This document shows, one piece after another, positions 55,352 to 64,000 of a stretch of DNA of 64,000 nucleotides. Origin of the DNA: Bryobacteraceae bacterium. GTDB taxonomy: Bacteria > Acidobacteriota > Terriglobia > Bryobacterales > Bryobacteraceae. Every line of letters starts with the position of its first letter. The stretch's first letter is position 1. A program made the position numbers and the translations under genes. A model generated the notes under the pieces. The model had not been told where the DNA came from and ran no database searches. It saw nothing but the letters and a program-made list of their open reading frames with translations. The stretch spans positions 1 through 64,000 of the forward strand of contig JAHCHE010000003.1 in the NCBI GenBank assembly GCA_026129905.1, in the 5' to 3' direction.

Positions 55352-55402
55352 TCAGGGCGCGCGCGCTGCTTCGATCGCGGTCCACCGGGGCAGCTCAGGC
55401 AT
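55352..55402 (-). pseudogene. hicA toxin 5' remnant
   Basis: Starts ATG 55402 inside hicB and reads PELPRWTAIEAARAP to a stop, against PKLPRWTAIEAERALLAAGF in the intact copy at 57164. The toxin is lost after about 16 codons. Confidence 0.7.
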
Positions 55403-55616
55403 TCACCTCGCCGGTGGTTGTCGGAATCGCGCGGCTGAGGAGAGCCTCACGTTGGTCGGCTGGGAGCGTTTCGAGGTACAGCTCAATCGCCTCTCTGATG
55501 TTTGCTAGAGCCTCCTCAAGCGTGGCGCCCTGCGACTGACATCCCTTCAGCTCGGGGCGCCAAACAGAGAACCCGTGTTCGTCGCGTTCGACAACGACGC
55601 TCGCCTTGCGGCTCAT
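55395..55616 (-). CDS. hicB: HicB-type antitoxin, solitary copy (73 aa)
   Basis: ATG 55616. HicB partial RNase-H fold: SRKASVVVERDEHGFSVWRPELKGCQSQGATLEEALANIREAIELYLETL. Nearly the same as the 57157-57378 copy (offset 1762 bp without gaps); differences include T-R and C-R changes. It could still neutralise the other HicA, or be a relic without function. Confidence 0.8.
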   Translation of the reverse strand: MSRKASVVVERDEHGFSVWRPELKGCQSQGATLEEALANIREAIELYLETLPADQREALLSRAIPTTTGEVNA

Positions 55617-55675
55617 GATTGCGTGTATCGCGCCCACTGCCGATCGCGCCGGCGCGTATCGGCGCCGCAACCGCC

Positions 55676-56515: not shown

Positions 56516-56856
56516 GTGAGGGCCGCCTTCGTACCAGACGCGGGCGATTTCGTCTGGTTAACATTCGACCCTCAAGCCGGCCGCGAGCAGTCAGGACGGC
56601 GGCCGGCCTTGGTGCTGAGTCCGAGAATATATAATGCGAGGTCCGGTCTGGCGCTGGCGTGCCCGATCATGAAGCAAGCCAAAGGATACCCCTTCGAAAT
56701 GGCTGTTCCTGCCGGCTGCGGCGCGACTGGCGTCATTCTTGCCGATCACCTGAGAGCATCGACTGGAAAGCCCGGCGCGCCGAACGACTCGGGCGCTGCA
56801 CAGGTGAAGTGATGGAGGAGGTGCGGGCAAAATTAGTGCCCCTGCTGAGGTACTGA
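56516..56856 (+). pseudogene. MazF/PemK-type toxin with a -1 frameshift
   Basis: GTG 56516 starts RAAFVPDAGDFVWLTFDPQAGREQSGRRPALVLSPRIYN, the MazF N-terminus, and continues to GVILADHLR. Near 56757 one base appears to be missing; the next frame then reads SIDWKARRAERLGRCTGEVMEEVRAKLVPLLRY, the expected C-terminus. The antitoxin gene that should precede is not recognisable. Likely dead. Confidence 0.72.
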
Positions 56857-57468: not shown

Positions 57469-58480
57469 TTAGGGGGGAGCCTCTGTCTTGGCGACCCGCT
57501 TTCTCAAGAATGGAAGCCACTGGGCGTCGCTTGGCGCAAGTCTTCCAGTCCGCTGCAACTCCTCGGCAACGGCCAGGGCTTTTGGCCACCACGATTCCTG
57601 TTTGGTGGCTTCGGCCATCCTAACGTAGCTGACAACAAGGTCCCACTGGGCCTCCGCGCTGGCCCGGTTGGCCTGCGCCAGTTTCTCTCGAATGGCCAGC
57701 GATTGCGTGAACCGCTCCCGCGCCCCGCCCAGGTCCCCCGCCGCCACCAGCACGTCCCCCAGTCGATTGAAGCTGAGGCTGACGTCCCGCTGGGCCTCCG
57801 CGCTGGCCGGGTTGGCCTGCGCCAGTTTCTCTCGAATGGCCAGCGATTGCGTGAACCGCTCCCGCGCCCCGCCCAGGTCCCCCGCCGCCACCAGCACGTC
57901 CCCCAGTTTACTCAGGCTCACGGACCGTTCCCGATCGCCGGCGGCCGAAGTCAGCGAGCTTGGCCGCGTTCCGGATTGCCGTAGCACGTTCCGCCGCCAC
58001 GTTTTCGGCTCGCACGATCTGCTCGATAACCGGAAAAGCCCCCACGCGATCGCCGTCGGCGAACCGCTGCAAAGCTCCGCTCAGTTCCGGATTGCCGGTA
58101 TCGGTCAACCCCGCAATCTGCCGGCGGAACTCCGCCACTTCGGCGGCGTAGGACCGGTCACGCTGTGCAATCGCATCCACCAGCCGTGACTTCTCCTCTA
58201 TCAACTCTTCGAGCCGTCCGCGAACCGCTGCCTGCTCCTCTCGGGTTCCGCCAAACTCGCGAGCCATCGCTCTTAGAGCCTTGTCACGTACCTCGAGCTC
58301 CGCGAAGAGGCGCTCCTCGCGTTCCTCCGCCAGGCGCCGCTCCCGGGCGATTGCGATCGCCCGTTGCGTGGTGAGGTCGTTCTGGAGAACGCGCCGGCTA
58401 ACGTTTACATCCTGTTGGGCGCTTTCAGCAATGCTGAGAATGGCGCAGGCGCAAACCAGATATCGAGTTGGTCCGCTCAT
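57469..58480 (-). pseudogene. secreted coiled-coil/TPR protein, broken by frameshift or deletion
   Basis: Frame from 58480: a signal peptide (YLVCACAILSIAESAQQ), coiled coil (residues 40-105), then ALQRFADGDRVGAFPVIEQIVRAE as in TPR-containing relatives, but it stops at 57908. The other frame (57987-57469) supplies a Sel1-like/TPR part with two nearly identical 48-residue units (LGDVLVAAGDLGGARERFTQ...; 57673 and 57817, 144 bp apart). An internal segment and frame have been lost at about 57930. Confidence 0.65.
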
Positions 58481-60286: not shown

Positions 60287-60400
60287 TTGCAGGTGGATGC
60301 GTTCTTGAAGGAGCACGGCGTATTCGACTTCACAGTGGCGGATTTCGAGCAGGACCGCGAAACTATCCGTCAGCTCGTCCTGACCGCCTCTGAAACACGA
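60287..60400 (+). pseudogene. UPF0175-like antitoxin C-terminal fragment
   Basis: Reads QVDAFLKEHGVFDFTVADFEQDRETIRQLV, the pattern of UPF0175 proteins (FLK-HGV-DYT-EDFE-D) without their N-terminal DNA-binding half. The last part lies within the 655-bp repeat and so is present twice. Confidence 0.45.
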
Positions 60401-60992
60401 CCGCGCCTGGCGGAGAGGCTCGCCCTACTCGGCCAAGCACTCCTCCCGCCAGCACCACCGTCCTTCTCCTTTGCGCCGCCACTCGCTGTCGCCGAAGCGG
60501 AAGTTGTCCCATACCTCGGCCGGATTTCGCACCCGGTGGACGTGTTCGCCCGGCTCGTTAAAAGGGACCGCTCTGCTTCTCACGATCGCGTCGAGCGGGG
60601 GGCAAATAAAAACCGGGATCGAAACGCGGGCGCGGGTAGCGGACGGATTGGTCACCCGGTGGGGATCCGAGCGGATCCTGCCGCCGGTGGCGATTTCAGC
60701 CAGTTCGCCGTAATGCACGCACACAGGCTCGGGAACCGGGCGCCAGCGGCCGTCGGAGGTCATCGTTTCCAGCCCGCCGACGTCGTCCTGAAACAGGACC
60801 GTCAGCCAGCTCCAGTCGCAATGGGCGGCCACGCCGGAGCGCCCTTCGCCCGGGTGATAGCAGATCATCTTCATCAGCAGGTAGGCCGGTTCTTCCACCG
60901 GCAGCCCGGCCTCCGCCAGCAGCCGGCATCCCACGCGCGCCGTTTCATCCAGGAAGTCGAGGACCGTCTCGCGCCATCGCGCGCCCAGCGCC
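60338..60992. repeat. 655-bp duplicated segment, copy 2
   Basis: Ungapped partner of 53011-53665 (offset 7327 bp). In this copy the oxygenase iron ligands are intact. Confidence 0.75.
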
Positions 60993-61219
60993 GCCGGCCA
61001 GAGGTTCGGCCCTTCCAGTCGGTGGAATCCGCCGCGTCCGGCCGCTCTCTCGGCTCCGAAGTGGATCTGCTCGCGCCAGTCGCGCGCGTTCTTCATCTCC
61101 GAGTAGCCGCGGAAGTGAGGCGAATGACGGATGTGGATGGCGTCCTTTTCTACCGCCGGCAGGGCGAAGAAGGCGCGCGCGGCCTCAAGGATGTTTGATC
61201 CGCAGCAGTTCCCGAACAT
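60425..61219 (-). CDS. 2OG-Fe(II) oxygenase, isopenicillin-N-synthase-like, N-terminus lost
   Basis: Iron ligands HCD (AHCDWSWLTVLFQDD) and His in DPHRVTNPSATRARVSIPVF with the 2OG-binding Arg-x-Ser. The N-terminal DIOX_N part is cut: the frame begins near NILEAARAFFALPAVEKDA where relatives have about 40 more residues, and the first bases overlap the deoxyribosyltransferase-like gene. ATG 61219 could give a 264 aa protein; activity is uncertain. Confidence 0.65.
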   Translation of the reverse strand: MFGNCCGSNILEAARAFFALPAVEKDAIHIRHSPHFRGYSEMKNARDWREQIHFGAERAAGRGGFHRLEGPNLWPAALGARWRETVLDFLDETARVGCRLLAEAGLPVEEPAYLLMKMICYHPGEGRSGVAAHCDWSWLTVLFQDDVGGLETMTSDGRWRPVPEPVCVHYGELAEIATGGRIRSDPHRVTNPSATRARVSIPVFICPPLDAIVRSRAVPFNEPGEHVHRVRNPAEVWDNFRFGDSEWRRKGEGRWCWREECLAE

Positions 61220-61904
61220 CGATGTGCGGCCCGAACACCGCGACGCCCTGGTAGCGGAACATCTCGCGAGTCTCGTGCTCCTGCCACGTGACGGCTGCCT
61301 TAAACGCGGCGCGCACCACGTCGCTTTCGTCCGCCGAGGACGGCAGGTACCACGCGCGGCCTTCCATGCCCAGCGCCAGGACCCGCAGATGATAGCCGCC
61401 GTTCACCGGCTTCGCCTCAAAGCGCAGGTCGCCGCACTCGATGTCGCTCAGAATCGCGCGGACCCGACGTCCGCTCCTCACCTGGGCGATTGCCTGCTCG
61501 ACGCCCTCCTCGACGTGTTCGAACACAGGCACGCCGTGCGCCGCCGCCATCGAGCGGACAAAGATCCGGCCGCGGTTCAGGTCGTCCCGTTCCTCGCTCC
61601 CCAGCCAGTCCGCGCCCTCCGGGATCATGCGAACCGCCAGCGCCAGCGGCCGCCCCAGCCCGATCAGGTAGCTTGCCTCGCCGACGCTCGCCACGCCGCG
61701 CGTGGATTCGTGAATGACGAACAGCAGGACCTCCGCCTCGTCCTTGGCCTTCATCTCCGCCGGCTCACAAGCAGGCGTCCATTCGCCGACGCCAAGCTGC
61801 GGGTTGTAGTAGCTCACGCCGGCGGCGTTCAGGCGCGGAATCGCGATCTCGCGCCGCCAGGTGGTCCGCCCGCACGCGCCGCCGAGAAAGACTTCGTTCT
61901 CCAT
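61185..61904 (-). CDS. nucleoside 2-deoxyribosyltransferase-like protein (239 aa)
   Basis: N-terminus VFLGGACGRTTWRREIAIPRLNAAGVSYYNPQLGVGEWTP and EVLLFVIHESTRGVASVGEASYLIGLGRPLALAV match the nucleoside-deoxyribosyltransferase-like family (PF15891 type). The second half is a separate alpha/beta region (VRAILSDIECGDLRFEAKPVNGGYH). Four bases after the ABC-type gene; overlaps the oxygenase frame by 35 bp. Cytosolic; substrate unknown. Confidence 0.78.
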   Translation of the reverse strand: MENEVFLGGACGRTTWRREIAIPRLNAAGVSYYNPQLGVGEWTPACEPAEMKAKDEAEVLLFVIHESTRGVASVGEASYLIGLGRPLALAVRMIPEGADWLGSEERDDLNRGRIFVRSMAAAHGVPVFEHVEEGVEQAIAQVRSGRRVRAILSDIECGDLRFEAKPVNGGYHLRVLALGMEGRAWYLPSSADESDVVRAAFKAAVTWQEHETREMFRYQGVAVFGPHIDVRELLRIKHP

Positions 61905-61908
61905 CGGC

Positions 61909-62844
61909 TCACATCCGTTCCACCGTCACCGAGGCCCGCAGGTTGGCCACGCCCGCCGTGTAGCGCGAGTCGGCGACCGAGAATGCGAGCGCGTCCTCCA
62001 GCCAGTCGTGCCAGACCCCGTCCGGATCGTGCGACGCGGCGGTGAGCGTGTACTCCTGCGGGCACAGGTTGCAGCAAAACGAAAATGTCACCCGCAGCGT
62101 CGTCCCCGCCGCGCACGGTCCCAGCGGCGCCCCTTCCAACTCGGTGTTCGTGCCGAAAACCTCGAAGCCGATGCGCGTGCGGATCATGATGCCGACCACC
62201 GGGTCGGCCACGTCTTTCGCGAAGCGGACCGTCACCCGCGCCGCGACCTCCGCGCCGCTCTGCCACACCATCGCCGGGCGCCCCGACGCATCCAGGGTCT
62301 CCAGGCCGGCGACCTCCGCCCGGCCATCGCCGCGCCGGAGGGAAGGCGCAAGCGGCTGCGCGATCGACCGGCCCCATTCCTGGAGCCTTCCCGCAATGTG
62401 ACGGTTGTACTTGTCGAGGACCTCGCGGGGGTCGCCCTTGGCCGCGATCCGGCCTTCCTTCAACCACCAGATCTCGTCGCAAAATGCGCGCAGCAGGTCC
62501 TGTTCATGGCTCGCTACCAGGACGGTGACGCCGGCGCGCCGCAGGCGCTCGATGCCCGCCAAGGCCCGTGCGCGAACCAGCGCGTCGTGCATCGCGAAGG
62601 CATGGTCCAGAGCCAGCGTGCCCGCCGGCGCGAGGTTCAACGGTTCGCCTACGCCGAGCAGCCGGCGCGGCTCGGTGGCGTCCACCAGGCCCGAAACGGG
62701 CTGGCCCAATCCCGCCGCCAGCCGCAGCAGCGCGCGTTTGCCCGAGCCGTCCTCGCCGATGATGCCGATGACGGCGCCGTTCGGCGCGGTTACGCTCACC
62801 TGTTCGAGCGGCGGGCAGTTCACTTCCCGGAACACGAGAGCCAT
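61909..62844 (-). CDS. degenerate ABC ATPase fused to a Wzt-C-like domain (311 aa)
   Basis: Walker A at 30-36 (GEDGSGK) and the switch His113 (ASHEQDLLRAFCDEIWWLKEGRI) are clear, but the nucleotide domain is only about 150 residues. The Q-loop and the LSGGQ signature are absent, and the Walker B catalytic Glu is His81 (LALDHAFAMHDALVRARA). The C-terminal 130 residues fit the Wzt_C O-antigen-binding fold (VVGIMIRTRIGFEVFGTNTELEG, TFSFCCNLCPQEYTLTAASHD). Wzt ATPases export polysaccharide; this one probably binds a sugar chain but may not hydrolyse ATP. Only 21 bp from a divergent gene. Confidence 0.7.
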   Translation of the reverse strand: MALVFREVNCPPLEQVSVTAPNGAVIGIIGEDGSGKRALLRLAAGLGQPVSGLVDATEPRRLLGVGEPLNLAPAGTLALDHAFAMHDALVRARALAGIERLRRAGVTVLVASHEQDLLRAFCDEIWWLKEGRIAAKGDPREVLDKYNRHIAGRLQEWGRSIAQPLAPSLRRGDGRAEVAGLETLDASGRPAMVWQSGAEVAARVTVRFAKDVADPVVGIMIRTRIGFEVFGTNTELEGAPLGPCAAGTTLRVTFSFCCNLCPQEYTLTAASHDPDGVWHDWLEDALAFSVADSRYTAGVANLRASVTVERM

Positions 62845-62865
62845 CCCAGATAGAATAGCCAGTTC

Positions 62866-64000
62866 ATGCCAAAGAGTCTTGCCGCGTTGGGAGTCCTCTG
62901 CCTCTTCGGCTGCGCGCGCGGGGAATTCAAGCTGACGCAAACCACCGGCGTGGTGCGCCTGCCGGCGGGGATCGTCGAGGTTGCCCGGGAACTGGAGATC
63001 GCGCCCGGGGCCCACGATCTGGAAATCGTCGGCGCGCCGGAAGGGACCACGCTGCGCGCCGCCGCCGGGTTCGACGGCCGGGCGGTATTGAGCTTCCGCG
63101 ACGCGAAGCGAATTCGCCTGCAAGGGTTCACCATCGACGGCAACCGCCTGGCGCTCGAACAGCGAACGGAGATTCCTCCGTCCGACATTCCTTTTATCGA
63201 CTACTTCTGCAACAACGGCGTGATCGCGCAGAACGCGGAGGAGTTGGAGATATCCTCGGTCCGCTTTGTGAATATCGCGAATTTCGCCGTGATTGTCTCG
63301 GAATCGCGGAATATTGTCCTGGACAAAATCGAGGTCAGCGACAGCGGTTCCCGCAATGCCGCCGGCCGGAACAACACGTCGGGCGGCGTGCTGCTGGAGG
63401 AGGGCGTCCAGGACTTCACCGTCCGCGACGGCCTGTTCGTCAACGTTCTCGGCAACGGCGTCTGGACGCATTCCCTCTATACATCCCCGCGCAACCGCAA
63501 AGGAGTCGTCGCGGGAAACGCCTTCCGGAACATCGGCCGCGACGCGATACAGGTGGGCCACGCGACGGAGGTCCTCGTCGAGCGCAACACGGGCGAGGGC
63601 ATCGGCTATCCCGTCGACGCGGTGGACGTCGAAGGCGGCGGCACGCCCGTAGCCATCGACACCGCCGGCGACGTGGACGCGACGATCTATCGCATCAACC
63701 GCTTCGAGGAGATCAACGGGAAGTGCGTCGACCTCGACGGCTTCCATGACGGCGAGGTGAGCGGCAACGTCTGCGTCAACAAGGGCAGGGCGGAGGACTA
63801 CCCGTTCGGCCATTACGGCATCGTGATGAACAACGCCAACCCCGATATGAATTCGCGCAATATCCGGATCGCGGACAACGTCATCGACGGCGTGAAATTC
63901 GGCGGCATTTTCGTCATCGGCTCGGGTCATCGAGTGGAGAACAACACGCTGCGCAACGTCAACGCCGCCGGCTGCAACGAGAGCGGCGCCCGCTTCGGCT
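62866..64000 (+). CDS. parallel beta-helix lipoprotein, 3' end outside the window
   Basis: Starts MPKSLAALGVLCLFGCARG, a lipoprotein signal with Cys16, and continues as right-handed beta-helix repeats (RIRLQGFTIDGNRL, NIVLDKIEVSDSGSRNA, VLVERNTGEGIGYP, NIRIADNVIDGVKFGG, HRVENNTLRNVNAAG). No stop within the window, 378 codons visible. Probable polysaccharide lyase or adhesin-type surface protein. TAGAAT at 62851-62856 is the likely -10, nearly leaderless. Confidence 0.82.
   Translation, partial: MPKSLAALGVLCLFGCARGEFKLTQTTGVVRLPAGIVEVARELEIAPGAHDLEIVGAPEGTTLRAAAGFDGRAVLSFRDAKRIRLQGFTIDGNRLALEQRTEIPPSDIPFIDYFCNNGVIAQNAEELEISSVRFVNIANFAVIVSESRNIVLDKIEVSDSGSRNAAGRNNTSGGVLLEEGVQDFTVRDGLFVNVLGNGVWTHSLYTSPRNRKGVVAGNAFRNIGRDAIQVGHATEVLVERNTGEGIGYPVDAVDVEGGGTPVAIDTAGDVDATIYRINRFEEINGKCVDLDGFHDGEVSGNVCVNKGRAEDYPFGHYGIVMNNANPDMNSRNIRIADNVIDGVKFGGIFVIGSGHRVENNTLRNVNAAGCNESGARFG

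Follow-up and report, generated by a model that had tools for sequence, protein, structure and literature searches.

A Wzt-derived pseudo-ATPase family in Bryobacterales with a candidate role in glycan-cap recognition

The pseudo-Wzt gene pW of a Bryobacteraceae bacterium encodes a protein that we hold, with moderate confidence, to be a former O-antigen export ATPase (Wzt) now acting as a soluble, non-catalytic reader of glycan caps. The loss of the ATPase part and of the membrane-coupling subdomain, the constraint on the carbohydrate-binding domain (CBD) and the linkage to neighboring genes were established by comparing sequences. Joint inheritance with a methyltransferase and an apparently exported protein suggests that pW now only recognizes a capped chain. 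pW is a Wzt homologue by its Wzt_C domain, and any function in export would be hypothetical. In the literature searched, where subscription journals are mostly absent, we found no description of a Wzt-derived pseudo-ATPase family, and its conserved three-gene association is likewise undescribed. The DNA analyzed, referred to as the window, is the whole stretch of 64,000 nucleotides (GenBank assembly GCA_026129905.1, contig JAHCHE010000003.1, positions 1 to 64,000, forward strand).

Results

The pW gene (61909–62844, minus strand) is an open reading frame (ORF) of 311 aa with an ATG start. Residues 169–301 (61942–62340, minus strand) form the Wzt_C domain, that is, the CBD, recognized by Pfam model PF14524 at 4.4e-31 and 108 bits against a cut-off of 30.4. 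Residues 1–160 (62365–62844, minus strand) are the remnant core of an ABC nucleotide-binding domain (NBD) without helical subdomain and include a helix (residues 139–159; 62368–62430, minus strand) equivalent to the Wzt hinge helix. The Pfam model ABC_tran aligns to residues 13–55 only, the first 43 of its 137 positions. NCBIfam models of complete NBDs found their best stretch on pW with either their N-terminal part (positions 17–60 of TIGR03873 on residues 13–56) or their C-terminal part (positions 170–242 of the Wzt model NF050108 on residues 76–148), so that ~110 model positions in between have no counterpart. Aligned to Aquifex aeolicus Wzt (7k2t), profile positions 12–60 correspond to chain residues 37–85 and positions 73–292 to residues 160–374; chain residues 86–159, which we take to be the Q-loop, helical subdomain and signature, found no match, and this part is thus missing from pW. 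The NBD is shorter by ~62 residues, and a short link (residues 56–76; 62617–62679, minus strand) replaces the absent segment. At the Walker A position (residues 30–37; 62734–62757, minus strand) the protein reads GEDGSGKR, with Arg for Ser/Thr, and Walker B reads LALD-H, Asp80 being followed by His81 where the catalytic Glu is expected (62602–62607, minus strand). The switch His is His113 (62506–62508, minus strand). A PHROGs search with pW returned generic ABC matches only.

Relatives of pW are widespread in its own family. Among 61 related genomes searched, the protein was matched end to end at 50–68% identity in many genera, and genome scanning across 84,980 species yielded 444 pattern matches, of which 180 were confirmed as relatives. 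The best 80 of these 180, together with the window protein, form the set of 81 in which motifs were counted (one row, L134, ends at a contig edge within Walker A). The record titles of the best 80 name Acidobacteria, Terriglobia, Solibacter or Bryobacterales, except for L082 and L096, which seem to be mislabeled, as the same contigs belong to own-family genomes (G031 and G024). Among 200 genomes that, judging by record titles, belong to the order Bryobacterales, pW was detected in 122 (124 minus two with a full-length Wzt only). Sampling 396 genomes across the phylum gave three matches at E 1e-55, all from the own family; remoter members could escape this cut-off.

Throughout the set of 81 (window plus best 80 of 180), the hallmarks of an ABC ATPase are lost to different degrees. 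The ABC signature (LSGGQ or a variant) and the catalytic Glu occur in none, the position of the latter being occupied by His (44), Gln (27), Arg (8), Asn (1) or Ala (1), and the helical subdomain is missing from all. The full Walker A motif GxxGxGK[ST], which GEDGSGKR of the window protein does not match, is present in 13 and its Lys in 28. Walker B Asp is found in 62 proteins, Asp87 in 78 and the switch His in 71, including the window protein. In 72 of 81 proteins the Walker B Asp follows Walker A at a spacing of exactly 50 residues, against 112 in full-length Wzts, so the shortening of the NBD is not a chance event. pW therefore departs from an ABC ATPase in Walker A, signature, catalytic Glu and Q-loop/helical subdomain; the switch His is present. 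The initial annotation had listed signature, Q-loop and Walker B Glu as missing, the last with His in its place, and all three absences extend beyond the window. It had also counted Walker A and the switch His among the remaining features: the former is already altered in the window by the Arg after the Lys, and the latter is indeed retained there but is not universal.

Controls were 22 distinct full-length Wzts (23 rows, one gene being listed twice) from this genome and from related ones, some of which carry no pW. All 22 have Walker A, the Walker B pair DE and the spacing of 112, and the signature pattern matched 21, the remaining one being missed by the pattern used. These paralogues (e.g. 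G000:C21:40926, L138) are homologous to pW in NBD core and CBD, with ~40% identity over residues 76–307. In a CBD tree, 20 of 21 full-length Wzts formed one clade (support 100/98), which neighbors the pW proteins and includes none of them; full_L139, the remaining one, sits on a very long branch and its placement is untrustworthy. Complete NBDs thus belong to a separate clade, and no orthologue with a complete NBD was seen among those examined. A full-length paralogue of this genome adjoins a long ORF that is presumably of phage tail type (L138:5401-10645), and no Wzm-like match was found in this 20-kb locus.

Conservation of the two domains is inverted between the groups. Mean pairwise identity in pW is 0.51 for the NBD and 0.66 for the CBD, the CBD being higher in 99% of 3240 pairs, whereas 19 full-length Wzts show 0.68 for the NBD and 0.52 for the CBD, which is higher in 0 of 171 pairs. 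Median omega in pW is 0.15 for the NBD and 0.10 for the CBD (118 non-independent pairs). This pattern and the low omega indicate that the pW gene is functional, with the strongest constraint on the CBD, whose ligand, judging by this conservation, is probably the same throughout the group. Purifying selection on the NBD core means that some unrecognized role of the NBD may exist. The prediction that a conserved short core would mark a pseudo-ATPase family is borne out at the level of sequence, in that signature and Glu are lacking from all 81 proteins and selection is purifying.

Two genes are linked to pW on its upstream side. A beta-helix gene with an N-terminal hydrophobic, lipobox-like segment (62866–64000, plus strand, extending beyond the window to contig position 64212) is transcribed divergently, and a methyltransferase gene (contig 64209-65519) follows 3' of it with an ATGA overlap. 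A neighborhood survey covered 100 pW loci (88 after removal of duplicates). Among 65 loci with at least 4 kb upstream, 49 had the beta-helix gene and 41 the methyltransferase gene within 12 kb of pW, and 52 had either of them, mostly <3 kb away. For the beta-helix protein, a match to PF13229 was all that Pfam and NCBIfam offered as to function, and a sequence search of the PDB found nothing. Four Cys are conserved, and 17 of 58 beta-helix proteins carry a lipobox-like N-terminal sequence (a loose pattern with unsure starts), which makes export likely. A SAM motif (EIGCGPGR) is conserved in the methyltransferase, the C-terminal part of which barely passes the Soli_cterm-like model TIGR03437 (29.2 against a cut-off of 29.05 bits). 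Its AF2 model (pLDDT 89.6) matches generic class I methyltransferases, with the sugar-type AtmM and RebM among many other matches, and Pfam, at E up to 0.01, returned methyltransferase families only and no kinase domain.

The association extends beyond adjacency. Across the 200 Bryobacterales genomes, the beta-helix gene was found in 113 and the methyltransferase gene in 121; 102 genomes had all three genes and 68 had none. pW and methyltransferase occurred together in 113 genomes, pW alone in 9, methyltransferase alone in 8 and neither in 70 (Fisher p 2.6e-34), and the corresponding counts for pW and the beta-helix gene were 106, 16, 7 and 71 (Fisher p 6.6e-30); both p values ignore phylogeny. 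Hence, 16 of the 122 pW genomes had no detectable beta-helix gene, and 9 gave no methyltransferase match above the cut-off, three of these nine having weaker, split matches. In four genomes (G010, G029, G030 and G032) pW is unlinked to both partner genes, yet all three are present. One genome (G049) has pW, the beta-helix gene and a divergent, split methyltransferase match, and neither G048 nor G050, of the same genus, gave a pW-type, beta-helix or methyltransferase match. Both the unlinked cases and this contrast within a genus support the three-gene association.

The conserved partners lie on the side opposite the nucleoside 2-deoxyribosyltransferase-like gene P0002 (61185–61904, minus strand; PF15891, 8e-12), which follows pW within at most 4 bp and which the initial annotation had placed in an operon with it. 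That arrangement proved particular to this genome (1 of 70 loci with 3 kb downstream). A conserved operon with the 2OG-Fe(II) oxygenase gene further downstream (60425-61219, minus strand), the ORF of which overlaps the deoxyribosyltransferase-like ORF, was rejected on the same count (1 of 70, this genome only). An ATP-grasp gene, which served as the adjacency control, lay within 12 kb of pW in 36 of these 70 loci; as it is present in 163 of 200 genomes, the link is unspecific and the gene was rejected as a specific partner. An RNR gene near pW in 8 of 65 loci was taken as synteny. Elsewhere in the window, an ORF contains the stretch GDVLVAAGDLGGARERFTQSLAIREKLAQAN repeated as near-identical units (57469-57987, minus strand), which we take by resemblance to be tetratricopeptide-like, and two small ORFs presumably encode a HicB-type antitoxin (55395-55670, minus strand) and a MazF/PemK-type toxin (56516-56812, plus strand).

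In the strongest rival reading, pW would belong to a Wzm-Wzt exporter as an inactive subunit or as a decoy, its CBD pairing with a full-length Wzt and tuning the exported chains; we consider this unlikely. Full-length paralogues do share many genomes with pW, and the Aquifex CBD is a dimer (PMC9445017). However, these paralogues also occur in genomes without pW. With six Wzm/ABC2-type queries from the own genome, no Wzm was found adjoining pW, and Wzm-like matches in the flanks of 6 of 100 pW loci (two on the same contig) were at least ~6.5 kb away; the test is weak, since the same search was positive in only 3 of 20 full-length Wzt loci and gave no match in the other 17. In ABC proteins the helical subdomain couples the NBD to the membrane subunit, and its absence from 81 of 81 pW proteins (window plus best 80 of 180) argues against such a subunit.

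Structure prediction supports the relationship to Wzt and locates a candidate pocket. The AF2 model of pW (27 sequences) has a pLDDT of 92 and a pTM of 0.81, and its best solved matches in Foldseek are full-length Aquifex Wzt structures. VIA-align placed 7k2t_A (Z 23.2, 270 residues, rmsd 9.6) level with the TagH NBD 7dd0_D (Z 22.9, 159 residues, rmsd 1.7), the high rmsd of the former probably reflecting a different orientation of the two domains in the model. As described in PMC9445017, the Aquifex CBD binds 3-O-methyl-mannose and not mannose: Asn313 contacts the ring oxygen, His350 the O2 hydroxyl, and the methyl pocket consists of Leu300, Thr346, Ala348 and Trp362, the last of which stacks on the 3-O-methyl group. 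Alignment to 7k2t gives as equivalents Asn233 (62146–62148), His272 (62029–62031) and Trp281 (62002–62004, all minus strand), together with Met220, Thr268 and Ala270. In the 81 proteins (window plus best 80 of 180), Asn233, Thr268 and Trp281 are invariant, Ala270 and His272 are each found in 80, and position 220 is Met in 55 and Leu in 26. The full-length paralogues keep the other pocket residues and have Gln (21 of 22) or Ala (1 of 22) at the position of His272, which is the sole pocket residue separating the two groups. With this methyl-sugar pocket near invariant, the earlier proposal of a sugar-chain sensor appears plausible. The hinge-helix residue Tyr233 of Aquifex is replaced, by Asn147 in the window protein and mostly by Arg in the family.

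Some features of pW would also suit a second alternative, in which the Wzt_C sandwich was reused for protein binding and pW is a sugar-free adaptor for the methyltransferase or the ATP-grasp neighbor. The surroundings of the pocket are unlike those in Aquifex, and the trap loop is shorter. The family has residues of its own (Glu124, Cys261 and Trp126-Trp127, the latter pair missing from the three homologues of family f3), and His279 is invariant in the set of 81 (window plus best 80 of 180) and present in 8 of 22 full-length Wzts. The genetic linkage of pW and methyltransferase is tight. Nevertheless, the Aquifex residues for the methyl sugar are kept, including His272, which is missing from the full-length paralogues, and the ATP-grasp link is unspecific; we regard the adaptor as improbable and place it after the exporter subunit. 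Separately, Cys258, Cys261, His272 and His279 (62008-62073) are almost invariant among the window protein and the best 80 of 180 relatives; Cys261 and His272 are absent from the 22 full-length paralogues and His279 from 14 of them. They might form a metal site or a disulfide.

Loss of the NBD has gone further in parts of the family. The match to pW begins past residue 45 in 29 of 122 genomes (one at a contig end), partly through gapping in the search. An eroded set of 18 loci was assembled from 17 with a late match start and G097. In genus g60 the protein has ~248 aa and neither Walker motif is readable; in several other genera it has ~240–280 aa, with a short NBD remnant of variable length and the CBD kept. 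The Asn, His, Thr, Ala and Trp positions of the pocket are each retained in 18 of 18 eroded forms. On the CBD tree these forms require five changes (bootstrap range 4–6), of which the best-supported branches alone force one. A switch that binds ATP without hydrolyzing it, like degenerate NBDs, would fit the Walker A Lys, Walker B Asp and switch His of the window protein and the NBD omega of 0.15. It fits poorly with relatives that have no readable Walker motif and with the scarcity of Walker A (full motif in 13 and Lys in 28 of the window protein and best 80 of 180), and is in our judgment very improbable. A pseudogene, deletion or assembly artefact, which the missing segment alone might suggest, was rejected as having next to no probability, since orthologues in other genomes (the best 80 of 180) share the truncated NBD, 72 of 81 proteins have the same spacing, omega is well below 1 and the start-site element described below is conserved.

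The 21-bp intergenic region between pW and the beta-helix gene (62845–62865) contains TAGAATA/TATTCTA at 62851-62857, a symmetric sequence that offers a -10-like hexamer in both directions and leaves room for leaderless transcripts. In 61 of 78 loci (the 80 minus two without start codon or flank), the motif TA[TC][TC]CT occurs at most 24 bp before the pW start, compared with 10 of 1600 random windows, and in 59 of these 61 it lies at -13 to -15. At 46 divergent loci the partner is the beta-helix gene (25) or the methyltransferase gene (21). The two starts are 20–25 bp apart in 26 of the 46, and the element is present in 24 of these 26 close pairs; in 12 the starts overlap by 8 bp, and start calls there are unsure. 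A sigma-70 scan of 60300-63100 found no full promoter and no -35 match, and the -10-like element rests on comparison among loci. The arrangement suggests that a bidirectional promoter gives rise to leaderless transcripts in either direction, in the window and upstream of pW in L058-L137.

Discussion

The closest known system is the O-antigen exporter of Aquifex aeolicus, the Wzt of which (7k2t, 8dku; CBD 8dky) is the best sequence match to pW among solved structures and has the same domain order. The two have the same methyl-sugar pocket residues (PMC9445017) and differ in that pW has lost segment 86–159 and the catalytic Glu, has a mostly broken Walker A and has no adjacent Wzm that we could find. 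Loss of the catalytic Glu is shared with the degenerate sites of heterodimeric ABC transporters. Further features separate them from pW, in which the helical subdomain and signature are gone and some species have also lost much of the NBD. Degenerate NBDs of heterodimeric transporters keep the helical subdomain and form a sandwich with an active partner.

For terminated O-polysaccharide systems, PMC11231755 describes a check of the terminal group by the Wzt carbohydrate-binding module before export. If pW is a glycan-cap reader, it would have retained this check and lost export. The protein would be cytoplasmic and dimerize through its CBD, as Aquifex Wzt does, and the conserved pocket would bind a methylated sugar at the non-reducing end. 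The linked methyltransferase would make the cap and work with pW, which might serve as a receptor or chaperone for the capped intermediate, or as its quality control, and pass it on or retain it. Once export has taken place, the beta-helix protein may act on this glycan or on the envelope, and the NBD remnant would be a scaffold beside the hinge helix with no nucleotide switch. A glycan-capping methyltransferase combined with a carbohydrate-binding module has counterparts in the WbdD-type and Klebsiella O7 ORF6 terminators, which join a methyltransferase to a kinase and, in O7 (PMC11231755), also to an Ig-like module. At the pW locus, in contrast, the module is a separate protein derived from an export ATPase, and the methyltransferase has no kinase domain and a Soli_cterm-like C-terminal part.

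More tentatively, and with rather less than even confidence, we extend this proposal to a reader/writer system of the whole order: the methyltransferase would cap a glycan conserved in Bryobacterales, pW as an ATP-free descendant of Wzt would read the cap and the beta-helix protein would handle the product outside, with the NBD undergoing parallel dismantling in several lineages and the glycan pocket unchanged. If true, it would be a case of an ABC protein turning into a pure carbohydrate-binding protein, a free-standing lectin.

The pW family displays the stepwise loss of the motor of an ABC ATPase and its survival as a putative recognition protein, with intermediates visible in living species that range from an intact-looking core through broken Walker motifs to little remaining NBD. 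Proteins of this type are likely annotated as ABC transporter ATP-binding proteins, a label that would be misleading as to function. As for the three-gene association, it probably represents a glycan system, and the soil bacteria that carry it are a large group with poorly characterized surface polysaccharides.
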